This document shows positions 1 through 13,663 of a DNA stretch of 64,000 nucleotides, in pieces (positions within the stretch are counted from its first letter, which is position 1; the number at the start of each line of letters is the position of its first letter). The position numbers and the translations under genes are program-made. The DNA lies in the NCBI GenBank assembly GCA_024399035.1, contig JAKSID010000004.1, forward strand, positions 1 to 64,000, written 5' to 3'. The notes under the pieces were generated by a model. It had not been told where the DNA came from. It ran no database searches and saw only the letters and a program-made list of their open reading frames with translations. The stretch comes from Fibrobacter sp. (GTDB lineage Bacteria; Fibrobacterota; Fibrobacteria; Fibrobacterales; Fibrobacteraceae).

Positions 1-132
1 CCTAGAATCTGATGTTGGAACAAACTATTTTTGCGAAAAACCCTTGACACTACCCCTCATTACACCAGTAAAAAATGATTTTCTAGTGATATATATACTT
101 TTTTAAGGTGAAAACGAAATCGCAGAAAAAAG

Positions 133-157
133 AAAAAGGCGGATAAACCGCCTTTTT
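133..157 (-). terminator. Rho-independent terminator
   Basis: A 10-bp perfect stem (AAAAAGGCGG / CCGCCTTTTT) with a 5-nt loop lies just past the stop codon of the minus-strand gene ending at 177. The flanking A and T runs make it potentially bidirectional. Confidence 0.85.
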
Positions 158-176
158 AGGGATTAATTTGACCTGA

Positions 177-647
177 TTAGGATTCTTCTTCGTCCTCATC
201 CAGTTCCCAGATGGAACAGCCCTTTTCGGCCGCGAGTTCTGCGTCGCACTTGGGAATATCAATTTCATCTACGTACTTGCCGATAAAATCTTTCTTGCAA
301 CGGTCGATTTCATTCCAGTCGGAACGAATGACATAAACCAACAGACGAAATTCCTGGTACATGTCAGAATTCTTGTCGTTATAGAAATCTTTGTATTCTT
401 CGCTTTCGTAGGTCGGATCGGGGATGTTTTCTGGGGTAAAATCACCCTCGAGCAGGGTCTCGTAAAGACTTTCACCCACATTGAACATGATTCCGCAGTT
501 TTCGACCTCGGTTACATCAAGGAAACGGGTCTCGCCATTTTCGGCTTGGAGTTCGACCTCTGCAACCACCCATTCGGGGCCCGGACCACAAGGGCCAACG
601 TGTCCATTAATTTCGCATTTGATGTCTTTGATCAGGTATCTAGCCAT
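177..647 (-). CDS. Acidic hypothetical protein (156 aa)
   Basis: I do not recognise this soluble, strongly acidic protein. It has no signal peptide or membrane segment. It opens with a beta-rich half containing a Gly/Pro-rich loop (GPCGPGPEWV) and ends in a run of Asp and Glu. The start is well supported: GGAGG lies five bases before ATG at 647. It is a single-gene unit with its own terminator. An intergenic gap of about 135 bp separates it from the restriction-modification operon upstream, which is more A+T-rich. Function unknown. Confidence 0.75.
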   Translation of the reverse strand: MARYLIKDIKCEINGHVGPCGPGPEWVVAEVELQAENGETRFLDVTEVENCGIMFNVGESLYETLLEGDFTPENIPDPTYESEEYKDFYNDKNSDMYQEFRLLVYVIRSDWNEIDRCKKDFIGKYVDEIDIPKCDAELAAEKGCSIWELDEDEEES

Positions 648-782
648 TATAGCCTCCGATTGAATTGTTTACGGTTATAATATAGTATAGGGTAGATGTC
701 AGAAAATGGCATCGTAATGAGATTTTTAATGTATGAGTAACAAATAATCGGAAACTTTCATATCATTTGTCGATGGCATACA

Positions 783-1601
783 TCATTTAAATAGACCGGT
801 ATCGCATTCATTGATTAAATTATTTCTCAATAATCGTTCAACATATTTTTCTCTACTTTCCTCTGCCATTAAAAAAAACATTTCGAGAAGCTCATGTTGA
901 TTTTTTTCGTATCTATTAAAAAAATATTGTAAAATGGAGAGTGTTGTGAAATAAATTTTATAATATGATGTTGTTGGAAATTGACGTAATTTTTCAACAA
1001 GTGCGTAAACGTCATTTGTCCCTTTTTTGGGAAGTTTTTCAAGTACGATAAGACCACACTCAATTTTGTTTACAGTATTTCTAGAATTATATGATATAAG
1101 ATTTCCGATCAACCTTCGACAACACTCTAATGAATCGTTATTTATATCTGTTTCGACAAAGCATTCTTCTCCGTTCTCATTACTTATGTATCCGTCAAAT
1201 CGTAAGTTTTTATTTAAATTCGTATTTGCGGCAAAATCAAAAAGTGAATTTAGGTATGACATGGCGATGACGTTCGCAACATTATTTGCTTGAATCATGT
1301 CCTGCGGCATTTGAGTAGTTACGCTTATTGTCGCGTCTGCTTCAAATTCTAGATTTTGTTTTGAACATTTTTTTACGCATAATCCACAATATAGACATCC
1401 CATACGTTTTTCTTTTGGGGGAATTTTTACGTCTATATATCCCTGTTGCAGTTGCTCATTAGAAGGTTCATTTGAAATAAATTTTATGGGGCAGGTATCT
1501 CTGTCTGTACTTAGATTATTTCTAGTAATAACATCGTTTCTAGCACATGTTTTTTTATTGCATTTTTTGCACTTGATGGTGTCCAATATTTTGATATACA
1601 T
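783..1601 (-). CDS. Cysteine-rich 4Fe-4S ferredoxin-like protein at the end of an R-M operon
   Basis: The protein has about 272 residues. Near the N-terminus is a CxxCxxxxC cluster (CKKCNKKTC), followed by a ferredoxin-like CxxCxxCxxxC (CLYCGLCVKKC, about residues 70-80), so it probably binds at least one Fe-S cluster. The C-terminal 180 residues are helical and unrecognised. The start was moved from 1622 to ATG 1601. A GGAGG site lies six bases upstream, inside the last codons of the preceding restriction gene, and that gene's stop ends one base before this ATG. The tight coupling puts it in the restriction-modification operon. A Fe-S protein is unusual there; it could be a nuclease subunit, a sensor or a DNA-binding cofactor. 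Function is inferred only from motifs and context. Confidence 0.75.
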   Translation of the reverse strand: MYIKILDTIKCKKCNKKTCARNDVITRNNLSTDRDTCPIKFISNEPSNEQLQQGYIDVKIPPKEKRMGCLYCGLCVKKCSKQNLEFEADATISVTTQMPQDMIQANNVANVIAMSYLNSLFDFAANTNLNKNLRFDGYISNENGEECFVETDINNDSLECCRRLIGNLISYNSRNTVNKIECGLIVLEKLPKKGTNDVYALVEKLRQFPTTSYYKIYFTTLSILQYFFNRYEKNQHELLEMFFLMAEESREKYVERLLRNNLINECDTGLFK

Positions 1602-1602
1602 G

Positions 1603-3270
1603 TCAGGCCTCCGCAAAACCATGAGATTTTAGCAGTGTATTTAGATCAACGTTTCTTTTTTCCCATATGACATTTACTGCCATTTTAACGAGAGTTTGTA
1701 CATCCAGTGCAATCAGATTGATATGAACTTCTTGGAAACATGAATCGATAAAATCTTTCAATTCTGTGATGTTTGTTGGCGCGGTGTATCCTACTATCAA
1801 GGAAGCGTATTCTAAATCATCTTTTGTTTTGAAGGTTAGTATTTTGTTCTCAACAGCCTGTCGAAATCCTTTTAAATTATATGTTGGAGTTTCTGTATAG
1901 GATTTTATCTCTACGGGAATATCATGTCCATTATATTCACACAATGCGTCGATTCGTCCAACCTCGCCTTTGCATGTTAAACCGATAATTTTGAGCAAGG
2001 ATTGAACGAACGGATAAAAACGAGATTTTGAGTATTTCTTACAAACATCAATGAAATTGTTTTCTAAAACTTCACGTTTTGTTCCCTTATTTTTAGCCTC
2101 AATAATCTGCTCGATTAAATTGTCTTTTGTAATATGGTTCTTTATGTAAGACGCAAAATCACTCGGCCTTGTATAAACAGGCTTTAAACGGAGTATTTGA
2201 GATGAAACTTGGCTGTTGATGGTGTGTTCTTTCTTTTTTAATGCTTCGGGGGCCTCTCTAATATCTTTTCCTAGAAACCAATTGGCGTTGGTTTCGGGTA
2301 TTAGCTGAAATGGAGAAAAAATATCTTTGTTATTTGTTGCTGCGGTGTCGAAGCCTCCAGCAGACAGTATGTTGTTGTACCCTAAACAACAGATGCTCTT
2401 TTGTTTTAATATTTTTTGCTTTCTAAACTCTGCGGGAGTCCAAAAACGAAATTTCTTCCATTTTTTTTTCACAGAGTCAACAAATTTTTTCCCTTTTTCA
2501 GTACATGTATAATAATTGCTGCCGTTTATCGACAGATTTTCGTTCTCAAGGATTTCACAAACTCTCAAAATTTGATTTATGGTTCTTGTTAAATTAGAGA
2601 GATTCTGAATGGATTCTCCCTTTTGTGTTTTGGGGAGAAAAAGTTCTTTGTCTGAAACGCAGCCTTCCCCTCTTCGTTCTTTTTTCACCATGACGATGAA
2701 GTCGTCGATTTGCTCGATTGAACATGCTGTTATTAACGGCATTTCCTGTACGCTAATCATGTAATCTAAAGATGCTAGCGCATAACAAATTTCATAGCCT
2801 AAAAAACAGTTAAAGGTGGATTTGCAACTGTAATCGTAAATTTCGGACGCCGAAGTAATCCCCAAGAATGCTTCTAATAAAAGCGTGTAATCAGGAATGA
2901 TTTTGCTGTTTGTTGGAAATACTGTATTCAAAACATTCAATCCAAAATCGGTAATTGAATACAGTTCGGAATCATAATCCGTTGCGACCAATCCTAACAC
3001 CCTTAAAATTTGCATTCTCTGCTTTGCGTTTTGCAAAACAGAGTTGTTTCCTTCTTCTATAGATTCGTCATTTACCAATTTGATAATGTCATCACCCATT
3101 TTTCCTGCGCTTGTGACGATATTACCTCTTATGGCAATTTCTGCAATAGCTCTTTTTGAAAAATAGCCGTGCTTGTCTGCAAAGCCTTGCGAAATCGCCA
3201 TATTATTTAGAAGCTGCAAATTTTGCAATATGCTTCCTTGATTCGGTAATTTTAAATAACCATTGCTCAT
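1603..3270 (-). CDS. Probable restriction endonuclease subunit (PD-(D/E)XK-like)
   Basis: This is a 555-residue protein. Its first 200 residues look like repeated winged-helix DNA-binding modules. At about residues 435-465 there is a PD-(D/E)XK-like pattern: an aspartate in GRIDALCEYNG followed by the E-x-K of PVEIKSY. It sits immediately after two DNA methyltransferase genes, three bases from the upstream stop. This matches a restriction enzyme partner. Large size with separate recognition and nuclease parts, plus two methyltransferases, suggests a type IIS-like enzyme with an asymmetric target. The recognition sequence cannot be read from the sequence. Codon use is A+T-rich compared with the right part of the window. 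Confidence 0.7.
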   Translation of the reverse strand: MSNGYLKLPNQGSILQNLQLLNNMAISQGFADKHGYFSKRAIAEIAIRGNIVTSAGKMGDDIIKLVNDESIEEGNNSVLQNAKQRMQILRVLGLVATDYDSELYSITDFGLNVLNTVFPTNSKIIPDYTLLLEAFLGITSASEIYDYSCKSTFNCFLGYEICYALASLDYMISVQEMPLITACSIEQIDDFIVMVKKERRGEGCVSDKELFLPKTQKGESIQNLSNLTRTINQILRVCEILENENLSINGSNYYTCTEKGKKFVDSVKKKWKKFRFWTPAEFRKQKILKQKSICCLGYNNILSAGGFDTAATNNKDIFSPFQLIPETNANWFLGKDIREAPEALKKKEHTINSQVSSQILRLKPVYTRPSDFASYIKNHITKDNLIEQIIEAKNKGTKREVLENNFIDVCKKYSKSRFYPFVQSLLKIIGLTCKGEVGRIDALCEYNGHDIPVEIKSYTETPTYNLKGFRQAVENKILTFKTKDDLEYASLIVGYTAPTNITELKDFIDSCFQEVHINLIALDVQTLVKMAVNVIWEKRNVDLNTLLKSHGFAEA

Positions 3271-3273
3271 ATG

Positions 3274-4101
3274 CTATTCTACATCTATCTTTGTGATTCG
3301 GTTACTTGCAACGTCACACCATCTCTTTTCCAGCTCAATGCCAGTCCATTTGATTTTATGACCTTTTCGATTCAGCTTTTCACAGCAAACGCCGAGTGTT
3401 CCGGATCCATGAAAGGGATCTAAGACTGATCCTGAATATACGCCATCAATCATTGGACAAAAAGCTTTCAAAATCTCGGTTATCAAAGATTCTGGTTTTT
3501 GCGTTGGGTGGTCCGTTCGTTCGTTAGCAAAACATTTCCCTGCTAACGTAGGGAATTGCCAGATGTCTCCGCGCATAGCTCCCTTTGCGTTAGGTTCCCA
3601 GATTTTTTTTACACCCTGGGCAGTTTTGTATTTAATAGGTTTCTTTAGACGTTCGACGCTTTTGTATGGAATTCTAACCTCATCTACATTATAGGTCCAT
3701 TTCTTTTCATTATTTGAAAACCACAAAAAGGGCTCGTATTGCGTTGCAGGTTCTTTTTTGGATCTAGAAAAGCCGTTTTCATAATGCCAGATATTCATTC
3801 GTCTGTAAAATAAGCCGGCATTTATCATTGCAATTTGGGCATAACATATGTAATCATGAATCCCGAACCAAATAATACTTCCTTCTTTTGTCAAAAGTTT
3901 CTTTAGTTTTGCGATTCTGCTGTTTGTTGTTGCCACAAAATCATCTAGTGATAAATCGTCGCTTTTGTTGCCAAAATCTTTTTTTAAGTTATACGGAGGA
4001 TCTGTTAATATCAAATCATACTGATAACCTTCTGCAATGAGTTTATCTAGCAAAGAGTCGGAATCTCCGCATACAACACCGTAGAATTTTTCTTGTTTCA
4101 A
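3274..4101 (-). CDS. DNA adenine/cytosine-N4 methyltransferase, beta-class order
   Basis: This 275-residue amino-methyltransferase carries the catalytic DPPYNL (motif IV) at about residue 33. The AdoMet-binding motif I (VLDPFHGSGTLG) is near the C-terminus at about residue 228. The IV-before-I order is that of beta-class m6A/m4C enzymes. Translation probably begins at TTG 4101, preceded by AAGGA at eight bases. It is the second gene after the controller and is followed closely by the endonuclease-like gene. It probably protects one strand of the asymmetric target while the neighbouring methyltransferase protects the other. Confidence 0.9.
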   Translation of the reverse strand: MKQEKFYGVVCGDSDSLLDKLIAEGYQYDLILTDPPYNLKKDFGNKSDDLSLDDFVATTNSRIAKLKKLLTKEGSIIWFGIHDYICYAQIAMINAGLFYRRMNIWHYENGFSRSKKEPATQYEPFLWFSNNEKKWTYNVDEVRIPYKSVERLKKPIKYKTAQGVKKIWEPNAKGAMRGDIWQFPTLAGKCFANERTDHPTQKPESLITEILKAFCPMIDGVYSGSVLDPFHGSGTLGVCCEKLNRKGHKIKWTGIELEKRWCDVASNRITKIDVE

Positions 4102-4102
4102 T

Positions 4103-5128
4103 TTACTTTTCCTTTTTGAATATCAAAATAAATTGATGATGGATGTTTTCCACATATGCAAAGGGGTAGCCGTATGGCAGGAGTGATTTGTGATTTTGCA
4201 AAAGAATCTTCACACCCTGGAGACTCAAAGTTCCGCCGCCTGGAATCTTGGCGTGGTTGAGTGTTTGTATTAGATCGCTATGGAAGCTGAGGAAGTTTGA
4301 CTTATCTCTAAAATCAGACACTACCAAAGCCATGTATTTGGTAGGACGAATGATTCTTGCACATTGCAGAAAGATATCGTTTGTAAGAATGTTTAAAAAA
4401 TCAGTGTAGCAAGCTACATTGCCTAAATCGTTTTTATCATTTGAATATTGAGTATCAAGATTCTTTGCTACTCGTTCTTTTTTGACTTTTTGATCTTGCT
4501 TATGTAAAATACCCCAGTATGGAGGAGAGGTTACCATAAAATCAAAACTATTTGTATCGAGTTTCTTCAACTCAACACAAGAGTTGCCGTTTATAAAAGT
4601 GTGTTTTTTACTGGTTCCTTTGCCAACTTCTTTTTCAAGACGATCTTTTGAGAGCTTGTAATACTTCGGGGAGAGCTCAATACTCGTGCAGATTCGTCCG
4701 TCAATTTCGCAAGCTTTTGCCGTCGAACCGACACCTCCAAAGGGATCTAGAACTTTCATTCCCTTTTTTGTAAAGAATCGTACAAGGTGCCCTATATCTT
4801 GAAAAGAGTAGGGCGCAGGATGCTGCTTTTCGATTTGAGCGTCTGGACTGTCTGCTCCTAAGCCTTTTTGATAAAGAAAGCTTTTTGTTTCTGGCAGCCA
4901 GTCTTTCCCGGAAAGATCATTAAGGGTATTTCGCTTGTCAACAACACCATCTTTTAGTTGTTTGTATTCTGGTGTCAACATGAACTTTTTTAGCTCATTC
5001 GCCTTGATGAATTTTTTTCCTTTCTCGTTTTCGTACAGTCGAAGTACTCCTGAAGAAAGTAATTTATCAAATGTATGGCGAGATAATTCGCTAATTTCCA
5101 TGGCTTTGTTTTTCGTTAGCTTTTCCAC
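4103..5128 (-). CDS. DNA methyltransferase with TSPPYW motif
   Basis: The protein has 341 residues. After a helix-rich N-terminus of about 100 residues come motif I (VLDPFGGVGSTAKAC) and then the catalytic TSPPYWG, a form common in N4-cytosine methyltransferases. The motif order (I before IV) is opposite to that of the adjacent methyltransferase, so the two are not recent duplicates. I chose the GTG at 5128 rather than the longer frame from 5191. AAAAGGA precedes it by about nine bases, and this start avoids overlap with the upstream regulator. The RBS overlaps that regulator's stop, implying coupling. Confidence 0.85.
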   Translation of the reverse strand: MEKLTKNKAMEISELSRHTFDKLLSSGVLRLYENEKGKKFIKANELKKFMLTPEYKQLKDGVVDKRNTLNDLSGKDWLPETKSFLYQKGLGADSPDAQIEKQHPAPYSFQDIGHLVRFFTKKGMKVLDPFGGVGSTAKACEIDGRICTSIELSPKYYKLSKDRLEKEVGKGTSKKHTFINGNSCVELKKLDTNSFDFMVTSPPYWGILHKQDQKVKKERVAKNLDTQYSNDKNDLGNVACYTDFLNILTNDIFLQCARIIRPTKYMALVVSDFRDKSNFLSFHSDLIQTLNHAKIPGGGTLSLQGVKILLQNHKSLLPYGYPFAYVENIHHQFILIFKKEK

Positions 5129-5144
5129 AATTGTAAATCCTTTT

Positions 5145-5369
5145 CTAAATGAAATCACGAGAATTATCGCTCTTTCGCATTTGAACAACATCTCCTATAT
5201 CACAATTAAGGGCTTCGCATATCTTGTAAATACTTTCCATAGATATAGGACGATTTTTGCTCATTTTTGCAAGTACATTGCCTGTAATACCGGCTCTATG
5301 AATTAGGTCAGTTTTCTTCCAACCTTCGTCGATAAGTTTTTTCCACAATCTGTTGTAACTGATTTCCAT
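5145..5369 (-). CDS. XRE/Cro-type regulator, likely R-M controller protein
   Basis: This 74-residue helix-turn-helix protein is almost entirely a Cro/C1-type domain (helix pair around TDLIHRAGITGNVLAKMSK, then ISMESIYKICEALNCDIGD). It is the first gene of the minus-strand restriction-modification operon. This is the usual place of a controller (C) protein that delays endonuclease expression. An ATAACG ATAACG direct repeat about 20 bp upstream of its start (around 5379-5390) is a candidate binding site. Confidence 0.85.
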   Translation of the reverse strand: MEISYNRLWKKLIDEGWKKTDLIHRAGITGNVLAKMSKNRPISMESIYKICEALNCDIGDVVQMRKSDNSRDFI

Positions 5370-5774
5370 AATTTAACAATATAACGATAACGTGAATAAA
5401 TATAATTAAAAATACAAATTTAATGATTGTTTCAAGAAATTACAAGTGCAAATTAATGGTAAATCATTCGATTATTTGGGGTTTTGGATAAAGATGGTTA
5501 AAAGATGGAAAGGGACTTTCTCACCAATTTTTCCTCGGTTTTAATATCCGCAGAGTATTCAGTCTATCGGGTGAATGTTTTTTTCAGTCTCTTGGCTACT
5601 TCATGTTTGTGGCGCTTTTGTTCGCCACTTACCATATGACAGTAGAAACAGTGTATGGCCAAATGGAAACTGATTGCTAGCGATGGATTTTATGAGAGTC
5701 TTTTTTTTCTTGTTGGTACATTATTGAAAAAAAGTTATTTTTCAATAAAACCGTCATTTTATAGGTATTGAATC
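5370..5774. other. Intergenic region with divergent promoters and an inverted repeat
   Basis: This A+T-rich 405-bp gap lies between the divergent R-M operon and the 882-residue gene. I see no ORF with an RBS. It holds the tandem ATAACG repeat near 5379-5390. Just before the plus-strand gene is a perfect 11-bp inverted repeat, TTATTGAAAAA / TTTTTCAATAA, at 5721-5748. Confidence 0.6.
5721..5748. promoter_or_regulatory. 11-bp perfect inverted repeat upstream of the 882-aa gene
   Basis: TTATTGAAAAA and TTTTTCAATAA are separated by six bases, 27 bp before the start codon at 5775. It could be an operator or an mRNA leader hairpin. The trailing bases are too A-rich for a typical plus-strand terminator. 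Confidence 0.55.
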
Positions 5775-8423
5775 ATGGCTCGCAACATTGACGAATACTA
5801 CAACAAAGTTTTAGACGTTTTAATCAATTCTTTGGATAAAGACAAGGTGCCTACGGACTGGTTCAAAAAGGTAATTGTTCCTAAGGTCCTTTCTGCATCC
5901 TATGTTACCGCAATCCATAAATTGACTGCTTCTGTGAGTGGCAAGACATTGATCCCGGACATGGGATTTGGCGAGTTATACTTCGCAACCAATGATGACG
6001 ATATTGTAGATGCATACTTTATTGATGAATGGCTTAAGTATTCTTCGATTCACGAGAACTTGGTTGTTTCTTTTTATGAATCAAAGTTGTCGTCAAGGTC
6101 ATATGATGGATTAGATAAGTTCAATAGCAGAGATGTTCGCGCAGAGTCGTTTAGTGATGCATCAATCGAACAAAAATATGATAAGATTCTTCTTTACGTA
6201 AAGCTTAATTCGCTCGAAGATCAAATTGCATATATTGACAAATGCTTAGACCTACTTGAAGAAAATGGCATGTTTGTCGTGATTACATCGCTGTTGATTC
6301 TTCAAGATGCTTCTGCTTCGGTACTGAGAAAAAAAATATTACAGAATTTTTCGCTTGAGTTTGTCTATCAAAATTCGAACATTGATACTCTTGGAAAGGA
6401 TTCTCTTCTCCTTATAAGAAAACGAACGCAAACTCCGGGCATTTGTTTAGAGTTTTTAAAACCTCTTGATGTTGCCTGCGATGCTTTTCTTAATAATTCT
6501 GGCGAACATTGGCTTAATGCGAAATCATTTTTTGACCGTTTTGATGTGTTTGATTTTTTTCCGCAATATCAAGAAATACGGAAAATTTGCCAGGATCCAA
6601 ATGTCACGCGTTTAGGAGATTACGCAGAGGTGATTACTGCGGATAAACTTTTTCAGCCTACTACTGAAAAAAACGACAATCCTGTGATTCTGGACATTCA
6701 TCTATTGGAAAACGGGAAGCTATACCAATGCCTTGATAACGGCTATCTTTATTCGACAGGGTGCTATCCTCAGGACATGTTTAATATTGGTGAGGAAAAC
6801 CATTGTTTTATCCAAAAAGACGATTTTATTCTTTTGCAAGTATTTAATAAAACTCGATGGGCGTTTGTTGATAAGGATGTTAAGAACATTTCAGTCGATT
6901 CCCCGACAATCATTATTCGTGCAAAAGATGAGCATAAGCGGAATCTATTGAGATTCTTCTTTGAGAATAGTTGCTGTAGAACCCTGTGTAAAGATTATTT
7001 CATCATCCAAATTGAGTATAATTTTAATGGATTCTATCCAATCAGTGAACGGAATGTTCTCAATTTTGCGATGCCTAGTGAAGAGCTGCTTACGTCTCTC
7101 ATGGAACACTCAGAAACGTCAACCAAGAAACAAATAGAAAATTTATTTGTAATGAATGGTTGGGACGTTGAAAATAATGTGTGCTTTCGAGATCTCAGAA
7201 ATACATCCATCACCAATATGCAGGAATTCATAAAATTTGAATATGACAATTTTGAAGAATGTGCCTATGTTGATTTTGTTTTGATGGAAAAAGGTAAAGT
7301 TAAGGCCTGTGTTCTTGCTGATAATGTTAATGCTGACACGATAAATGATGATGTTTTAAATGGTTGGGATAAAATCCAAAAATTGTCAAATGCAAAATTA
7401 TATCTATTTATTGACCAACAACTGTCAGAATATAAAAACCGAAAAACATACTTGCTTGATCGTATTCCTGCTCCTAAAGGATATAATGTTGCCCACGAAG
7501 CCGACAATACCTTTTTGCTGCAAGTGATGAGGGATAACTTTGAACGTTTGCATCAAAGTACCAAAAGGATTGAAGATAAACTTGATGGAATGATGAATCA
7601 AATTAACGGATGCCAAACCGTTATTTCGAAGCAATTAGAAAGCATTGAAAATAAACAGTTAGAGGCCGGTGAACTTTTTCAGAAGCAAGAAGAGCTATAT
7701 CAAAATCTTTCTGATGCTGTAATGGAAAAGGTTTCCCTAAAGGTTAATAAGCACAGCAATGATTTCGATCTTGTGCAAGATGAACTAAGAAAGAATTTCG
7801 GTGATGTTTGGAATAGGCTTGAGACTACGACTCAGACTTTCCTTGCTTCTGCCAAAATGATGTATCAGCAAACAAGTCCCTATGGTGATGATCTAGATTA
7901 TTCTGGCGTTTGCATTCCAGCAACAAAAGCTCTGGAGGTTGAGCTGGTAAAACGATTTTTGATTGGATTTAAGCAGTATTTGCAGAATAAATTTCCGCGA
8001 GACGGAATGAAATATTACGCTAACTATCCATACAATCTCAAGAAATCAAATAGAGGACAAATTGTTGTAGCTACAGAGCTGACATTAGGATCGGTTCCGT
8101 ATTTATTGTGCTACACGGATAAATATGATAATCGCAGTGATTTTGATTTGCAAAAAGATGAAAATATTCTGTATGACTACTTATCTCAATGTTTGATAAC
8201 AAAGCAGATCGGAAAAAAAGAATTGTTAGAAAACATCATTGCTATTGCAGAACATATTAAGGAAATTACGCGTAAGTACAGGAACCCTGCGGCGCATACA
8301 GGTGGACTGAAAAAGAAAACGGCTGAAGAATGTCTTAATTGTATTACTGAAATTGAGAGCGTTCTGATTAAGCTTTTAAAGTTACTTGATAAGGATCCAA
8401 TAGGATTGCCCATAAAGTCTTAA
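5775..8423 (+). CDS. Degenerate methyltransferase/HsdR-like protein with C-terminal HEPN motif
   Basis: This is an 882-residue protein of unrecognised family. Residues 1-220 follow the layout of an N6-adenine methyltransferase (HsdM type). However, motif I is eroded (DMGFGELYFA where DxxCGSG is expected) and the NPPY position reads LLYVKL, so catalysis is unlikely. Residues 270-440 resemble a target-recognition region. Residues 460-560 resemble an HsdR N-terminal fold (xxGWDVENN, YVDFVLMEKGKVKACVLAD) with the E-x-K lost. A coiled coil spans about 595-700. The C-terminal helical domain contains RNPAAH at about 837-842, a HEPN-type R-x4-H ribonuclease motif. Lying next to an R-M operon, it may be a DNA-sensing, RNA-cleaving abortive-infection protein; this is inference. 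Confidence 0.6.
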   Translation: MARNIDEYYNKVLDVLINSLDKDKVPTDWFKKVIVPKVLSASYVTAIHKLTASVSGKTLIPDMGFGELYFATNDDDIVDAYFIDEWLKYSSIHENLVVSFYESKLSSRSYDGLDKFNSRDVRAESFSDASIEQKYDKILLYVKLNSLEDQIAYIDKCLDLLEENGMFVVITSLLILQDASASVLRKKILQNFSLEFVYQNSNIDTLGKDSLLLIRKRTQTPGICLEFLKPLDVACDAFLNNSGEHWLNAKSFFDRFDVFDFFPQYQEIRKICQDPNVTRLGDYAEVITADKLFQPTTEKNDNPVILDIHLLENGKLYQCLDNGYLYSTGCYPQDMFNIGEENHCFIQKDDFILLQVFNKTRWAFVDKDVKNISVDSPTIIIRAKDEHKRNLLRFFFENSCCRTLCKDYFIIQIEYNFNGFYPISERNVLNFAMPSEELLTSLMEHSETSTKKQIENLFVMNGWDVENNVCFRDLRNTSITNMQEFIKFEYDNFEECAYVDFVLMEKGKVKACVLADNVNADTINDDVLNGWDKIQKLSNAKLYLFIDQQLSEYKNRKTYLLDRIPAPKGYNVAHEADNTFLLQVMRDNFERLHQSTKRIEDKLDGMMNQINGCQTVISKQLESIENKQLEAGELFQKQEELYQNLSDAVMEKVSLKVNKHSNDFDLVQDELRKNFGDVWNRLETTTQTFLASAKMMYQQTSPYGDDLDYSGVCIPATKALEVELVKRFLIGFKQYLQNKFPRDGMKYYANYPYNLKKSNRGQIVVATELTLGSVPYLLCYTDKYDNRSDFDLQKDENILYDYLSQCLITKQIGKKELLENIIAIAEHIKEITRKYRNPAAHTGGLKKKTAEECLNCITEIESVLIKLLKLLDKDPIGLPIKS

Positions 8424-8545
8424 ATATTTGACAAAACAGATGTTTTTTCCCGATAATATGTCAGCTGGGATTGATAATCTGGCTAAAAAGTTCGTTTTCT
8501 CCAGATTTTATATACATTAACTATTGAATTTAAAAAGGAGCTCTC

Positions 8546-9388
8546 GTGATTACCTTGGAAGTTGAAGCTAAGGATTTGGCAAAGGCCATTAAGACTCTTA
8601 AGAAGAAGGAGTCTTACCATCTTGTAATTAAGAATTTTGATGCCAAGACTGAATACAATATGAAGATCGAGGAAATGGCAAATGTGACTTCTGTTGAAGT
8701 TCATTTTGCCAATGGTATTGAAAAAATTACGGCTGATAAGCTTTTCTGTGCCCAGAAGCTGGTGTCCGTGGTGTTGCCCAACTCCGTAAAGGAAATCGAA
8801 GAACACGCTTTTGCTCATTGTTCGAATATTGAAAATGTAAAGATTCCTAAGTCTGTGGAAACTATTGGCAAGTGTGCGTTCGCCTTCTGTGAAAAGTTGA
8901 AGAAAGCCGACCTGCCTGCTGGCCTTAAGGACTATGTTGGTGACATTTTCCTTTTGTGCAGCAGCCTTAAGAAGATTGAAATTCCGGCATCTTGCAAGCC
9001 TGAGTGTTTTGGTATTCCGGGTTGTTCTAGCATCACTGAAATCAAGATTCCTTCATCCGTCAAGGAAATCGATCATGCTGGATTCTCCGATTGCCTGGGC
9101 CTGACCGAAATCAAGCTCCCCAGCAAGGTGACCATTCTCAGGGCTTATGCTTTTGAACGTTGCAAGAATCTTAAGAAACTGACTTTGCCCAAGGGCCTCA
9201 AGAAGATTTATCATCATGCCTTCTCTGATTGCGAAAGCCTTACGACTTTGAAGATTCCCGAAACTGTTGTCCGCTTAGAACATCATGCTTTCGTAAGGTG
9301 CAAGAATTTGCAGAAGTTGTACTTGCCTAAGCATCTTTCTGCAGAAGATTTGAGCATCCCGCCTAAGTGCAAGGTGATTAGCTACTAA
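8546..9388 (+). CDS. BspA-like leucine-rich repeat protein (LRR_5)
   Basis: The protein has 280 residues. After an N-terminal segment of about 55 residues it consists of roughly ten 23-residue repeats of the BspA/LRR_5 type (I-x-I-P-x-S-V-x-x-I-x-x-x-A-F-x-x-C). There is no signal peptide or anchor, so it appears cytoplasmic, unlike many surface BspA proteins. Start is GTG 8546 with AGGAG five bases upstream. A strong terminator follows, so it is monocistronic. Likely a protein-interaction scaffold; partner unknown. Confidence 0.85.
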   Translation: MITLEVEAKDLAKAIKTLKKKESYHLVIKNFDAKTEYNMKIEEMANVTSVEVHFANGIEKITADKLFCAQKLVSVVLPNSVKEIEEHAFAHCSNIENVKIPKSVETIGKCAFAFCEKLKKADLPAGLKDYVGDIFLLCSSLKKIEIPASCKPECFGIPGCSSITEIKIPSSVKEIDHAGFSDCLGLTEIKLPSKVTILRAYAFERCKNLKKLTLPKGLKKIYHHAFSDCESLTTLKIPETVVRLEHHAFVRCKNLQKLYLPKHLSAEDLSIPPKCKVISY

Positions 9389-9400
9389 ATACTGCAAAGA

Positions 9401-9427
9401 CCTCTCCCTTGTGGAGAGGCTTTTTTT
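9401..9427 (+). terminator. Rho-independent terminator
   Basis: A 7-bp stem, CCTCTCC / GGAGAGG, with a CTTGT loop is followed by C and seven T. It lies directly after the LRR gene and separates it from the ATPase/TOPRIM pair. Confidence 0.9.
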
Positions 9428-9450
9428 ATTAGAAAGTTATATTTCCAGAT

Positions 9451-11070
9451 ATGAAAAAACTGAAGTCTCTCGATATCAAGGGCCTGTTTGGCCTGCATGA
9501 TTATAAGATCGATTTTGAAAAGAAGAATGGATACACCATTTTTGCCGCCCCTAATGGCTATGGCAAGTCTACCATCCTTCAAATTTTGCGTTCCATTGCC
9601 AGTGGTAACTATTTCTTCTTTAATGAATTGGTTTTCACTTCGATCCATCTCGAATATACCGATGTTGAAAATGACAAGGAATCCGAAGTTCGCTCCTTGG
9701 ATATTGTAAGGCATCCTGTTGATTCCAAGTCGGCCAATGACTTTATGGATAAGATGAGCTGGAACGGTGTTGATTTTTCGGAAGGAGAGACTCCCGCCGG
9801 CGGCATGCTCCAGTACTTTATCGAAATTTGCTATTTCTCGCCGAACTATAGTGACAAGGCTGCTCAGGGATACAAGTCAATCCGTTTTTCGAACAGAGAT
9901 GTTTATGAACTGGCGGATATCATCAAGGAAGAAGATACGGGCCTTAAACGAGTTTATAGCAGTAATGAGGATGAAATCAGGTTTGGTTCCAGCTATTGTA
10001 CGGAATTGCCTTACTGGAGATACAAGGACGACGACCGTGAAATGAGTTTCGCGGAAGTATTTGGCCAATACAATTTAAGCAACTATTTCCACAAGCCATT
10101 TTGGGAAGGTCCTTTTGCGGGATATTATGACCTAATGCACTCTACATCTTTTGAATACTTGTATGTAGACGCTAATCGCACTGTGTATACGTCTTCGAAT
10201 AAGGGCAAAAAGGTTAATGCCGGTACTATTGCGCTGCTGCTGCACGATCTTGGTAAATTTTATTACCAAAAGGCAAAAAATATTTCTGAACAAAATTTCG
10301 AAAGATATCCCCAAAGTGTTCTTGAACTTTTGAACTCAAATCCGGATAAAGAGAAGCTTCGCGCCGAAGTTTTGGCACTGATGGATATGTATGCCAAAAT
10401 GAAGGAACGTGGTCATATGTATGGAACTTTTGTTCGTGGTGGGACATATGATTCCTATCACGTTAGTGATGAAATAAAGGAAAAAGTAGACAAGGGCGAG
10501 CGTATTGATTTGGGCTATCTATCGGATAATTGCAGTATCAATACCTTGGCATTTTACAAGGTGCTGTTGGATAATTTCATTGCTGAATTGAGTGTTTATA
10601 ATCCAATTGTCGAACGCTTAGAGTACTATCATAAGTGGCTTAAAGAATTTTTCCATAGTGTTAAAATATGGCCGACACTTAGTGGCTTTATTACGGATTT
10701 ACCGGAAGATGCTGCGCTTTATGAAGAAGAGGAATGGCGTTCCTATTTGGATTTAAGGAAGCTTTCCTCGGGTGAGAAGCACCTTGTGATGTTGCTAGGC
10801 ATTCTATCGGTGTTCAAGAATAAACGAGCTGCAGACTGGAATTTTGATTATCTTCAAAAGGACAAGTTCTCGTTCTTTGATTTCTTGGGCGACGCATTGA
10901 TCCTTATCGACGAACCCGAAATTTCGTTGCATCCCACATGGCAAGAAAAGCTGGCGGAATTCTTCTGGGATTGCCATAAGGATGGCGGCAACGAATTTGT
11001 TTTCGCGACCCATTCGCCTACGTTCGTAAGTAATCGTTGGAAAAACGTGATTGAACTTTCCCACTTGTAA
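9451..11070 (+). CDS. ABC/SMC-type ATPase, AriA-like (PARIS-like module)
   Basis: This 539-residue ATPase has Walker A (APNGYGKST, about residues 30-38), an ABC signature (LSSGEKHLVMLLG, about 430), Walker B with catalytic Glu (LILIDEPEISLHP) and an H-switch (ATHSP) near the C-terminus. This is the AAA_15/OLD-like arrangement. The next gene, nine bases downstream, encodes a DUF4435/TOPRIM protein. In PARIS systems AriA ATPase scaffolds hold the AriB nuclease until a phage anti-restriction protein triggers release. The assignment comes from domain pairing; other ATPase-DUF4435 pairs exist and the protein is on the long side. Nearness to an R-M operon would suit an anti-restriction sensor. Confidence 0.75.
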   Translation: MKKLKSLDIKGLFGLHDYKIDFEKKNGYTIFAAPNGYGKSTILQILRSIASGNYFFFNELVFTSIHLEYTDVENDKESEVRSLDIVRHPVDSKSANDFMDKMSWNGVDFSEGETPAGGMLQYFIEICYFSPNYSDKAAQGYKSIRFSNRDVYELADIIKEEDTGLKRVYSSNEDEIRFGSSYCTELPYWRYKDDDREMSFAEVFGQYNLSNYFHKPFWEGPFAGYYDLMHSTSFEYLYVDANRTVYTSSNKGKKVNAGTIALLLHDLGKFYYQKAKNISEQNFERYPQSVLELLNSNPDKEKLRAEVLALMDMYAKMKERGHMYGTFVRGGTYDSYHVSDEIKEKVDKGERIDLGYLSDNCSINTLAFYKVLLDNFIAELSVYNPIVERLEYYHKWLKEFFHSVKIWPTLSGFITDLPEDAALYEEEEWRSYLDLRKLSSGEKHLVMLLGILSVFKNKRAADWNFDYLQKDKFSFFDFLGDALILIDEPEISLHPTWQEKLAEFFWDCHKDGGNEFVFATHSPTFVSNRWKNVIELSHL

Positions 11071-11078
11071 GGACCTTT

Positions 11079-12119
11079 ATGTCAGAAGATGTTCTAGAAG
11101 AGGAAATCGAAATCCCGAAGGATACTCTCCTTTATCGTAAAGGTAGGGCGGCTTTTGTGGTGGGCGAGTTGTTGATGCGTAACAAGTCTGCAACAATTTT
11201 TGAAGGCTCCACGGATATCAAGTTTTACAGTCGGTTTATTGAGAACGATCCAGAAAAGCCCACGCGAATGTGTTGCCATGCAAAGGGCCGACCCAATGTT
11301 GAAAATGGTATAAGTATTTACCGTGACGCTCTAGAGGGTGCAAAGGAAAATGGTTACAAGGAAGGTTACACGGGTGTTAGTTTTTGCCTGGACCGTGACT
11401 ACGACGTTTTCCTTAAAAAAGATGTAATCAAGGATCAGTTCGTCCATTATCAAATGTGGCGTAAAGAAGGCGATCCGTTAGCAGGCTACAATGATTTGGA
11501 AGGATTTCTGTACAAGACAAAAGCTTTGGCATCTGTTTTGAAACACTTCGGTATCGATGCAAAGTATGCCAGGGATTATAGGGATGCTATGGTTGAGGCC
11601 TGCAGCTATATCGGTGTCTTTAGAATTGCGAACCGAATGATTCAGGGAGAAAAGCCTTCTCCCGTGCTTCTCAATAACCATAGCGGTGAACTTGATGTTG
11701 AATGGTTTTTAAGTAACGAATTTATCAAGATTGATAAACGTTCTGTGGAAATCGATGGCGAGAATTTTTATGACGTGGTTTCTGCTAAGATTCTCAAGGA
11801 GAACATCTTGGAAGAACGTGTTCCTGCAATTACGGAAGCCTTGATTGCAGCGAAAAAGTTGCTGGCCGATGACTTTGAGCCTGGCCTGAGATATTGCCGT
11901 GGCCATGACTTGTCCGAGGTTCTGTTCGCCCTTCTTTTGAAGGAAACGGAATGCGAATCTTACCCTTCAAGTATCGGTGATGTAGAAACCGTACTTTACG
12001 AGTTACCGCCGCACCCTAGCGATGAACGAAACAATGTTCTGTCGCTAGTGCAGGGTTACCCCATTTCCAAGGATTTTGACAAAAAGATCTTTGAAGAGTA
12101 TCTGCAAGGGAAACGGTAG
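11079..12119 (+). CDS. DUF4435/TOPRIM-domain effector, AriB-like
   Basis: This 346-residue protein shows TOPRIM-type acidic motifs: the Glu of ATIFEGSTDIKFYSRF (about residue 46) and the D-x-D of CLDRDYD (about residues 103-109). That matches DUF4435 nucleases. It lies nine bases after the ATPase gene and is surely co-transcribed. In PARIS, AriB cleaves host tRNA after activation, causing abortive infection. The same role here is inference from family and context. The gene ends two bases from the convergent gene at 12122. Confidence 0.75.
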   Translation: MSEDVLEEEIEIPKDTLLYRKGRAAFVVGELLMRNKSATIFEGSTDIKFYSRFIENDPEKPTRMCCHAKGRPNVENGISIYRDALEGAKENGYKEGYTGVSFCLDRDYDVFLKKDVIKDQFVHYQMWRKEGDPLAGYNDLEGFLYKTKALASVLKHFGIDAKYARDYRDAMVEACSYIGVFRIANRMIQGEKPSPVLLNNHSGELDVEWFLSNEFIKIDKRSVEIDGENFYDVVSAKILKENILEERVPAITEALIAAKKLLADDFEPGLRYCRGHDLSEVLFALLLKETECESYPSSIGDVETVLYELPPHPSDERNNVLSLVQGYPISKDFDKKIFEEYLQGKR

Positions 12120-12121
12120 GG

Positions 12122-12706
12122 CTATCCCCTCACTCTAAACTTCAAGGCGCCGATCAGGTTCTTGCAGATGAGTGTGCCCCATTGTTTTTTCATAAAGTTG
12201 TTGATGATCTCGGGGGCGTTGGTGAGCAGGTAGTTTGTTGCCAGCTGGTGGCCGAAGGAGCCGATGTTCACTCTTTCCTTCGCGTTCTCCACGATCAGCC
12301 TAAAGAGCTTGTCGGTATCCACCATAGTGTGGTCCTCGTTCAGCAGGTTTATCAGAATGTGCTTCGGGTGCGCCATCTTATCGCTGTATTCCATCAGGAG
12401 CATGGTGGGCGTGGCGGGTATCTTCGTTATCCCGAATTCCTTCTCGAACTTTATCAGAAAATCGATGTAGCCCTCTTCGAAGAACGAGGGATATTCCTTA
12501 TCCGTTGATAGACCTGGAATATAGAAGTTGATGTTGGTGCCCGAGATTTCGTTGTACCGGATGATACTTTGCTGCAGTGCCTTAATATTCGAACTGTCGA
12601 TCTGGCTAAAGTTGACGAATAGTACGCAAATTGTTGTTTCGGTCAGCTCAGTTTCGAACTTTTGAAGCAGTTTCTTGAAATGGGTGAAATTGTAGGTGGG
12701 AATCAT
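12122..12706 (-). CDS. Hypothetical protein (194 aa)
   Basis: I do not recognise this soluble alpha/beta protein of 194 residues. It starts with MIPTYNFTHFKKLL and ends with a basic tail (FRVRG). There is no signal peptide, membrane segment or clear catalytic motif. It converges on the DUF4435 gene with two bases between stop codons and no visible terminator, so the two transcripts probably overlap. Its coding character (few shadow stops, reasonable composition) supports a real gene. Confidence 0.65.
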   Translation of the reverse strand: MIPTYNFTHFKKLLQKFETELTETTICVLFVNFSQIDSSNIKALQQSIIRYNEISGTNINFYIPGLSTDKEYPSFFEEGYIDFLIKFEKEFGITKIPATPTMLLMEYSDKMAHPKHILINLLNEDHTMVDTDKLFRLIVENAKERVNIGSFGHQLATNYLLTNAPEIINNFMKKQWGTLICKNLIGALKFRVRG

Positions 12707-12820
12707 AAAAACAAATGGATTAAGTGAATCTCGGAATTACTTTATCAAAATAACTAATAAATTCCGGAACCTCAACCGTTTTTCTATCTTTCCCTGCGAA
12801 TTTATCTGTGAGGTTGGATA

Positions 12821-13663
12821 ATGAAGAATCTTTTGTGGATTTTGCTTTCTATGGTCGCCACTTTGCTGTTTGTGGCTTGTGACGACGACGGCGCCAGTGC
12901 CAAGAAATCTGACGACGGCGAGGAAGTCGCCCATGTGGTGGACACCCTCTACGTGTTCAGCAAGGATACGGTCTATTCTGTCGCGAGGGATACCGTGTAT
13001 TCCGTGAAATATGATACGGTGTATTCCGACGCCAAGGATACGGTTTACTCCGTCATTAAGGATACCATCTATTCTGATGCAAAGGATACTGTGTACGAAA
13101 AGGGCCTGGATGGGGAAAGCTGCTCTGTAGAAAGTTCTGAAGGCGGTGCGGTGATTGTCTGCGGACAGGATACCGTGACCGTCGATAATGGCAGCGCATA
13201 TTTGAAGGATACGGCTTGCGTTTACGTGGAAAATAATAGTAGTAGAGTGTCTATGAAGTGTGGGTCGAAATATGTTTATTTAATGAAGGCTCCAGTAGGG
13301 GGGCTAAGCTGTGAATCTAACGATTATAGCATTTTTTGTCATAGTGAGGATGGGCAAATTTATTTACAAATGTGCCATGATTATTGTGGTGGCGAATGCT
13401 ATCGTAGTGACAATTATTACTGTGTGAACGGGAAAACTTATTCAAAGTCTGCTACTATTGGATTTACAAACTCATCTGGTTCAACTGTGAGAATTAATCG
13501 TTATTGGTCTTGTGGAGATTACATTTACGACCTTCTTCCGACTGCAATCAAAGAACTGTATGACAAAAGACTTTGTGTTGGTGGGCTTACCTACGTTTGT
13601 GAGAATCCGTTAACATTAACAAACTGCGAATATTACAACATGAATTCATATATTGTGAAATAA
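12821..13663 (+). CDS. Secreted lipoprotein with DTVYS-type repeats
   Basis: This 280-residue protein begins with a lipoprotein signal peptide; the lipobox FVAC places the lipidated Cys at about residue 20. It is followed by an acidic linker. Residues 42-95 hold about seven 8-residue repeats built on K-D-T-V-Y-S. The C-terminal part is rich in cysteines and aromatic residues (about 15 Cys), suggesting a disulfide-bonded extracytoplasmic domain. GAGG precedes ATG 12821 by seven bases. Such repeats suit a flexible stalk to an exposed domain. Function unknown; surface or outer-membrane location is inferred. Confidence 0.8.
   Translation: MKNLLWILLSMVATLLFVACDDDGASAKKSDDGEEVAHVVDTLYVFSKDTVYSVARDTVYSVKYDTVYSDAKDTVYSVIKDTIYSDAKDTVYEKGLDGESCSVESSEGGAVIVCGQDTVTVDNGSAYLKDTACVYVENNSSRVSMKCGSKYVYLMKAPVGGLSCESNDYSIFCHSEDGQIYLQMCHDYCGGECYRSDNYYCVNGKTYSKSATIGFTNSSGSTVRINRYWSCGDYIYDLLPTAIKELYDKRLCVGGLTYVCENPLTLTNCEYYNMNSYIVK
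12946..13104 (+). repeat. Degenerate 24-bp coding repeats (KDTVYS)
   Basis: About seven tandem units encode (S/K)-x-D-T-(V/I)-Y-S within the lipoprotein. The DNA units (AAGGATACNGTNTANTCN) are diverged, so this is an old array rather than a recent slippage tract. Confidence 0.8.

Follow-up and report, generated by a model that had tools for sequence, protein, structure and literature searches.

A predicted catalytically inactive restriction-modification scaffold joined to a HEPN domain in a rumen-type Fibrobacter

Introduction

What could be the role of a protein that carries the outlines of a methyltransferase (MTase), a target-recognition domain (TRD) and an HsdR N-terminal region, each with an eroded catalytic motif, and that ends in a HEPN motif? 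The gene for such a protein lies in a stretch of 64,000 nucleotides from a rumen-type Fibrobacter, the whole of which is referred to here as the window. An earlier note, made from the sequence alone, had taken the protein for a restriction-modification (R-M) scaffold put to a new use, as a DNA-binding sensor coupled to an RNase, and had suggested that it may back up a divergent R-M operon next to it. We followed up this reading with searches for relatives, domain-by-domain alignments and structural models.

Results

An intact fusion gene in a low-GC region

The reading frame begins with ATG and runs without stops through 882 aa in the window sequence, it is single-copy in the 2.94 Mb source genome, and the domain order that had been proposed for it holds (Table 1). 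The intact frame and the conserved HEPN site described below led us to reject the status of a pseudogene; that of an active type IIG enzyme was rejected as well, since the protein has neither of the R-M catalytic sites. No Pfam, NCBIfam or PHROG model matched the 882-aa protein significantly, and its top match was the PADLOC MTase model mad2 (2e-4, residues 132–201).

The GC content is 38.5% at positions 1–13000 and 36.0% in the fusion gene, compared to 49.1% in the remainder of the window. The order in this region is the divergent two-MTase R-M operon, the fusion gene and, about 1 kb downstream of it, a PARIS-like ATPase/AriB pair, for the ATPase of which the PtuA model scores nearly as well as AriA (8.5e-20). 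The low GC content and the PARIS-like pair indicate that 1–13000 is probably an acquired defence island. The fusion gene is divergent from the R-M operon, as the earlier note had it, across a gap of 583 bp.

Within that operon, a 74-aa XRE-like helix-turn-helix frame (5145–5369, minus strand) overlaps the first MTase gene at its called start, which suggests that it encodes a controller protein and that the MTase starts later. The 555-aa protein (1603–3270, minus strand) gave no curated family matches; it has a weak winged-helix match and a PD-(D/E)xK-looking stretch, DALCEYNGHDIPVEIK, and is probably the restriction endonuclease (REase) of the operon. The last gene (783–1622, minus strand) encodes a 279-aa protein with CxxC cysteine clusters and only faint 4Fe-4S matches.

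Table 1. Features of the fusion gene and of its surroundings in the window
Feature	Residues	Position	Strand	Evidence
882-aa fusion: predicted dead N6-MTase, TRD, HsdR-N-like, coiled coil, HEPN		5775..8423	+	
N6-adenine MTase-derived region, predicted catalytically dead	1-225	5775..6449	+	hhalign 96.7% to five intact MTases over residues 150-221
Motif I remnant KTLIPDMGFGELYF	57-70	5943..5984	+	alignment with five intact N6-MTases
Motif IV position KYDKILLYVKLNS	134-146	6174..6212	+	alignment with five intact N6-MTases
HsdS-type TRD	253-436	6531..7082	+	via L006 and split1
HsdR-N (PD-(D/E)xK)-like domain	437-565	7083..7469	+	split1 HSDR_N_2, 28.0 bits, above cut-off; alignment
Long helix, presumed dimerising coiled coil	579-657	7509..7745	+	secondary structure in low-confidence AF2 model
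HEPN domain	661-872	7755..8390	+	weak Pfam matches dominated by HEPN families across 16 members; RnlA Z 10.8 (low-confidence model)
K718-A-L-E721, aligned with RnlA R255 and E258		7926..7937	+	
HEPN catalytic motif R836-N-P-A-A-H841		8280..8297	+	R, N, A, H invariant in 16/16 modules
BspA-type LRR gene, possible partner		8546..9388	+	LRR_5 1.8e-52
PARIS-like AriA/AriB pair		9451..12119	+	PADLOC AriA 8.5e-20, AriB 2.6e-5
Divergent R-M operon: two MTases, 555-aa putative REase, 279-aa protein; not conserved		783..5191	-	context

One fused relative and one split version

Among 168 genomes of the phylum, the sole other relative was found in a Fibrobacter succinogenes MAG (L006, the same locus as L002). 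This protein of 859 aa shows 28% identity over the whole length and has the same domain order, a dead MTase and an intact HEPN motif, reading KYRNKAAHTD near the C-terminus compared to KYRNPAAHTG in the window protein. Every domain is retained, with identities of 34% in the MTase, 31% in the third domain, 32% in the HEPN domain and 21% in the TRD, the most divergent of the long domains, as expected of a recognition domain. The 14 kb read around the L006 gene contained no R-M genes.

A scan of genome contigs with the full 882-aa protein returned nothing, and one with the HEPN alignment returned only L006 and a match in Clostridium thailandense (L007) that proved to be spurious and antisense. 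Scans of viral contigs yielded no accepted relatives; their one match, L039, was rejected as a phage protein in which RNPAAH occurs by chance. No relatives were present in phage records, the plasmid search found Priestia only, for the HEPN module, and sequence searches of the PDB gave nothing useful. The earlier note had named, as contrary to its reading, homologues in which the MTase motifs are intact and R-x4-H is missing; these were looked for and did not occur.

A search of Bacillota genomes with the HEPN alignment recovered a 294-aa coil-HEPN protein (L011, here split2), which starts with a coil similar to residues 579–657 of the window protein. Directly upstream of it, overlapping by one base (TAATG), lies, in the neighbourhood read (L045), the gene for a 491-aa protein (here split1) with the domain order N6_Mtase (40.6 bits, cut-off 20.4), Methylase_S (48.2, cut-off 22) and HSDR_N_2 PF13588 (28.0, cut-off 25). 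Split1 matches the L006 protein (BLASTP E 1e-18 over 293 aa) and the alignment of the two Fibrobacter proteins, A5 (hhalign 93.8%); its MTase is without motif I altogether, the frame upstream being closed by stops. Judged from these comparisons, split1 and split2 are a split version of the Fibrobacter fusion, and their arrangement as two genes suggests that the scaffold and the RNase act together. In the HEPN tree the Fibrobacter and split versions do not group together, so that the fused and split forms may have one origin or their pairing of scaffold and HEPN could be convergent.

The split pair lies beside a type I R-M operon (L045), the genes downstream of it encoding an MTase-TRD fusion, HsdM, HsdS and an HsdR-like protein. 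The MTase-TRD fusion (L045:6998–8875) is a homologue of the dead scaffold (27% over 320 aa); DFPF replaces NPPF in it, and it is possibly impaired itself.

Erosion of the methyltransferase and nuclease motifs

A profile of the window protein and L006 found real N6-MTases, and the MTase region of L006 matched a PHROG DNA methyltransferase (2e-6) and mad2 (4e-7). Compared with five intact N6-MTases, motif I of the window protein (IPDMGFG) keeps GxG and has lost the acidic residue, so that only P..GxG is left. At motif IV, the stretch YDKILLYVKLNS has LYVKL where the intact enzymes have NPP[YF]; its L006 counterpart is FDRIILFPIGS. [DNS]PP[YFW] is likewise absent from the motif IV equivalents of L006, KFDRIILFPIGS (FPIGS), and of split1, DYKIIVLEIWPE (VLEIWPE). 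The target-base loop, which extends for about 25–35 residues after motif IV in the five intact MTases, is deleted in both the window protein and L006. Neither of the features expected of an active N6-adenine MTase, [DNS]PP[YFW] in motif IV and an acidic residue together with GxG in motif I, is found in the window protein. The loss of catalytic motifs from a retained fold indicates that the MTase region is a scaffold, in agreement with the erosion that had been claimed for it.

The TRD was recognised in the window protein only by alignment with L006 and split1, the window sequence itself giving no model match and hhalign of its TRD against two HsdS proteins being negative (5.7%). Several type I specificity models match L006 at 222–430 (best, Specificity_I, 4.7e-8), and Methylase_S matches split1 (1.8e-12), so the HsdS-type TRD of the earlier parse is borne out through these two proteins.

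For the third domain, hhalign against one HsdR-N was also negative (0.3%). The HsdR-N-like assignment, which direct tests had not shown, gains its support from split1 as the split form of the fusion: the PF13588 match aligns with the window domain as PDIVL..VEIK (split1), VDFVL..VLAD (window) and SDLKL..VVAR (L006). The D..ExK of the nuclease is intact in split1; the window protein keeps D500 and has ExK replaced (VLAD, 513–516), consistent with the claim of an HsdR N-terminal region with an eroded catalytic motif.

A HEPN domain with its predicted RNase residues in place

The coiled coil of the earlier parse is matched by the long helix in a low-confidence AF2 model. The full-length AF2 model was unusable (pLDDT 33.7), and the HEPN model, built from two sequences, reached a pLDDT of 55.6 overall and of about 57–83 in the core helices.

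Sixteen HEPN modules with various N-termini and about 20–35% identity to the window HEPN were aligned (alignment A7); two module relatives without the histidine, L012 and L013, were left out. S710, E721, R836, N837, A840 and H841 are invariant in all 16, D708 is nearly so, and position 718 is K or R in 15. The invariance of R, N, A, H and E721 across 16 divergent modules places the R-NPAA-H motif beyond chance. For L014, L016 and L024–L027, the scored search stretch covered the first half only, and thus the motif was not what found them; L012 and L013 were matches of this sort too. R-x4-H is conserved in all 16 aligned modules, and the motif that the earlier note had described is present, with R836 and H841 as the correct numbering in place of R837 and H842. 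HEPN domains are defined by R-x4-6-H, a polar residue after the R and an upstream acid (PMC3710099). The window HEPN has R-x4-6-H, the polar residue and an upstream conserved acid, E721; on these residues it keeps the full predicted RNase set, and RNA cleavage is predicted.

Scans of the individual members gave weak matches to the HEPN-family Pfam models RiboL-PSP, RnlA, Swt1, DUF4145, MAE_28990, Apea, Cthe2314 and Abi_2, with sub-threshold scores such as 1e-4 for RiboL-PSP, 1e-3 for MAE_28990 and for DUF4145, and 2e-3 for RnlA. To judge the four-helix HEPN fold, the low-confidence HEPN model was compared with known structures; with VIA-align, RnlA was its best natural protein (Z 10.8 over 126 residues, a designed bundle also reaching 10.8); the sacsin HEPN gave Z 7.7, and helical bundles give a high background Z. 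Foldseek on the same model returned no E below 0.001. In sequence alignment, R255 and E258 of RnlA fall on K718 and E721, a correspondence that is suggestive only, hhalign against single-sequence RnlA being not significant (E 0.1). We take R255, E258, R318 and H323 to be the catalytic residues of RnlA, and the PDB title of an RnlA structure names R318A.

The HEPN module and its neighbours elsewhere

The HEPN module (residues 661–872) is also found in Clostridia and other Bacillota, where it follows glycine-zipper regions, REC domains, TPRs, zinc-ribbon/TM segments and coils. Its defence-related neighbours are type I R-M (L045), Gabija and a type III REase on a Priestia plasmid (L003), cas1 with a CRISPR array (L042), and E1/JAB, that is, ThiF/JAB genes (L046); at L041, L043 and L044 it lies beside genes without an obvious defence role. 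The module is common to many uncharacterised architectures and has no Pfam coverage above threshold.

At L042:3911–9129, cas1 comes straight after a Gly-zipper-HEPN gene, together with a CRISPR array that has at least 21 repeats with a spacing of 71–76, and no cas gene besides cas1 was recognised in this stretch. L014 and L024 have a response-regulator receiver-like domain fused to the HEPN module, an unusual REC output. An HNH-endonuclease gene adjoins Gly-zipper-HEPN genes in two Bacillota genomes (L041:4771–5652 and L043:8277–9032).

The fusion is followed directly downstream by an LRR_5 gene in each of the two Fibrobacter genomes (L006:7478–9352 in the F. succinogenes MAG). The window genome has one such gene and the L006 genome two, and 38 of the 168 genomes in the phylum have any; adjacency in both by chance would be about 1e-6, if independent. 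With n=2, the LRR gene as a partner is a lead.

Discussion

By its sequence, the 882-aa protein is an R-M scaffold (MTase core, TRD and HsdR-N-like domain) that has lost the residues for methylation and DNA cutting, with a coiled coil connecting it to a HEPN domain. We give roughly even chances to the explanation that it serves as an abortive-infection sensor-effector in a single chain, with the HEPN RNase gated by the inactivated scaffold. The cleft of TRD and MTase would still bind its DNA motif where this lacks modification, as it would on phage DNA entering the cell; binding would rearrange the coiled-coil dimers, and two HEPN domains would then form an active metal-independent RNase, cutting host and/or phage RNA and stopping growth or phage replication. 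Self DNA would be spared if the motif were methylated by some cellular MTase, or if several bound sites were needed. In this chain we infer the binding of DNA (or of a DNA mimic), the coil-mediated dimerisation, the RNA cleavage and the abortive outcome. Of the earlier idea of a DNA-binding sensor on an RNase, the architecture stands, having been met fused twice and split once, and the DNA binding and RNase activity are the inferred part.

The same anatomy would be predicted if the scaffold were an integrated decoy, baiting Ocr-like anti-restriction DNA mimics of phages so that binding of the mimic, not of DNA, releases the HEPN RNase. The attraction of this reading is that the DNA-binding surface of type I MTases and of PglX is where Ocr binds (PMC11341690); bait needs just what is seen, a scaffold kept while both catalytic sites are lost, and Ocr triggers PARIS, a PARIS-like pair lying 1 kb downstream of the fusion. 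However, DNA specificity would account for the divergence of the TRDs no less well, and for this Fibrobacter host no anti-restriction protein of a phage is known; we consider the decoy unlikely, if worth keeping in mind. The neighbouring R-M complex might instead keep the fusion inactive until a phage disables that complex and so releases it, for which PrrC is a precedent (PMC3710099). The divergent operon in the window and the type I operon adjoining the split version would suit such a guard, which is nevertheless quite unlikely: the 14 kb read around L006 are free of R-M genes, and the window operon belongs to a different type, with two MTases of the N6_N4_Mtase family, a separate REase and no subunit expected to assemble with the scaffold. 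The suggestion that the fusion backs up the neighbouring operon is weak in view of the same L006 surroundings, and retains the split version beside its type I operon in its favour.

Two other readings shift the function within the locus. The HEPN domain might be a dimerisation or RNA-binding domain of a DNA-bound regulator and not an RNase, given that some HEPN families are non-catalytic (PMC3710099), that L012 and L013 are without the histidine and that other module members are fused to REC domains; the invariance of E, R, N and H throughout A7, including all members with R-M parts, makes this very unlikely. Equally, the LRR protein might be the real sensor or an antitoxin, with the dead R-M part merely localising the RNase on DNA. 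Both Fibrobacter genomes have an LRR_5 gene, rare as these are, next to the fusion, but in opposite relative orientation and with LRR proteins of very different lengths, and the split version has no adjoining LRR gene; we regard this reading as a long shot.

The loss of both R-M active sites beside a kept RNase site points to sequence-specific or decoy DNA sensing that is coupled to RNA destruction and would involve neither DNA cutting nor methylation. A decoy, if true, would be a bacterial counterpart of the integrated-decoy immune receptors of plants, in one polypeptide. The two-gene Bacillota form is a tractable pair.

Several known systems share parts of this design. PrrC/RloC anticodon nucleases resemble it in that PrrC is likewise a HEPN RNase in an R-M context (the type Ic R-M PrrI), and a suicide response to phage DNA or anti-restriction is proposed for both; they have an ABC ATPase domain, whereas no ATPase model matches the 882-aa protein and its regulator is a dead MTase-TRD-HsdR-N part in the same chain. 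RnlA/LsoA (RNase LS) provides the low-confidence HEPN fold match, with K718/E721 against R255/E258 and R836/H841 corresponding to R318-x4-H323, though the sequence relation is weak; the fusion has an R-M-derived N-terminus in place of the RnlA-type N-terminal domains, and no RnlB antitoxin gene or small coupled gene was seen next door. All three subunit types of type I R-M (HsdM, HsdS and HsdR) are present in the order M-S-R(N), but in a single chain, with the catalytic residues of M and R lost, no helicase, and a HEPN added. The DUF499-HEPN (BREX-related type-1 BR) systems also place a HEPN RNase in an R-M-like system with an N6-MTase, but on an AAA+ ATPase, the MTase being a separate protein (PMC12839542). 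PDC-M09A-type Gly-zipper proteins (a PADLOC candidate; L010, L027) share the C-terminal HEPN module and have a glycine-zipper region where the fusion has the R-M scaffold.

The link between HEPN and R-M is thus already known, from PrrC and from DUF4145 and DUF499 fusions. A survey of the superfamily had R-M-linked HEPNs fusing to endonucleases, helicases and ATPases 'but not to the methylases' (PMC3710099), and our literature searches found no published description of a methylase-scaffold/HEPN fusion of this kind. The methylase-TRD-HsdR-N scaffold carrying a HEPN is therefore a new variation on the known HEPN/R-M theme.
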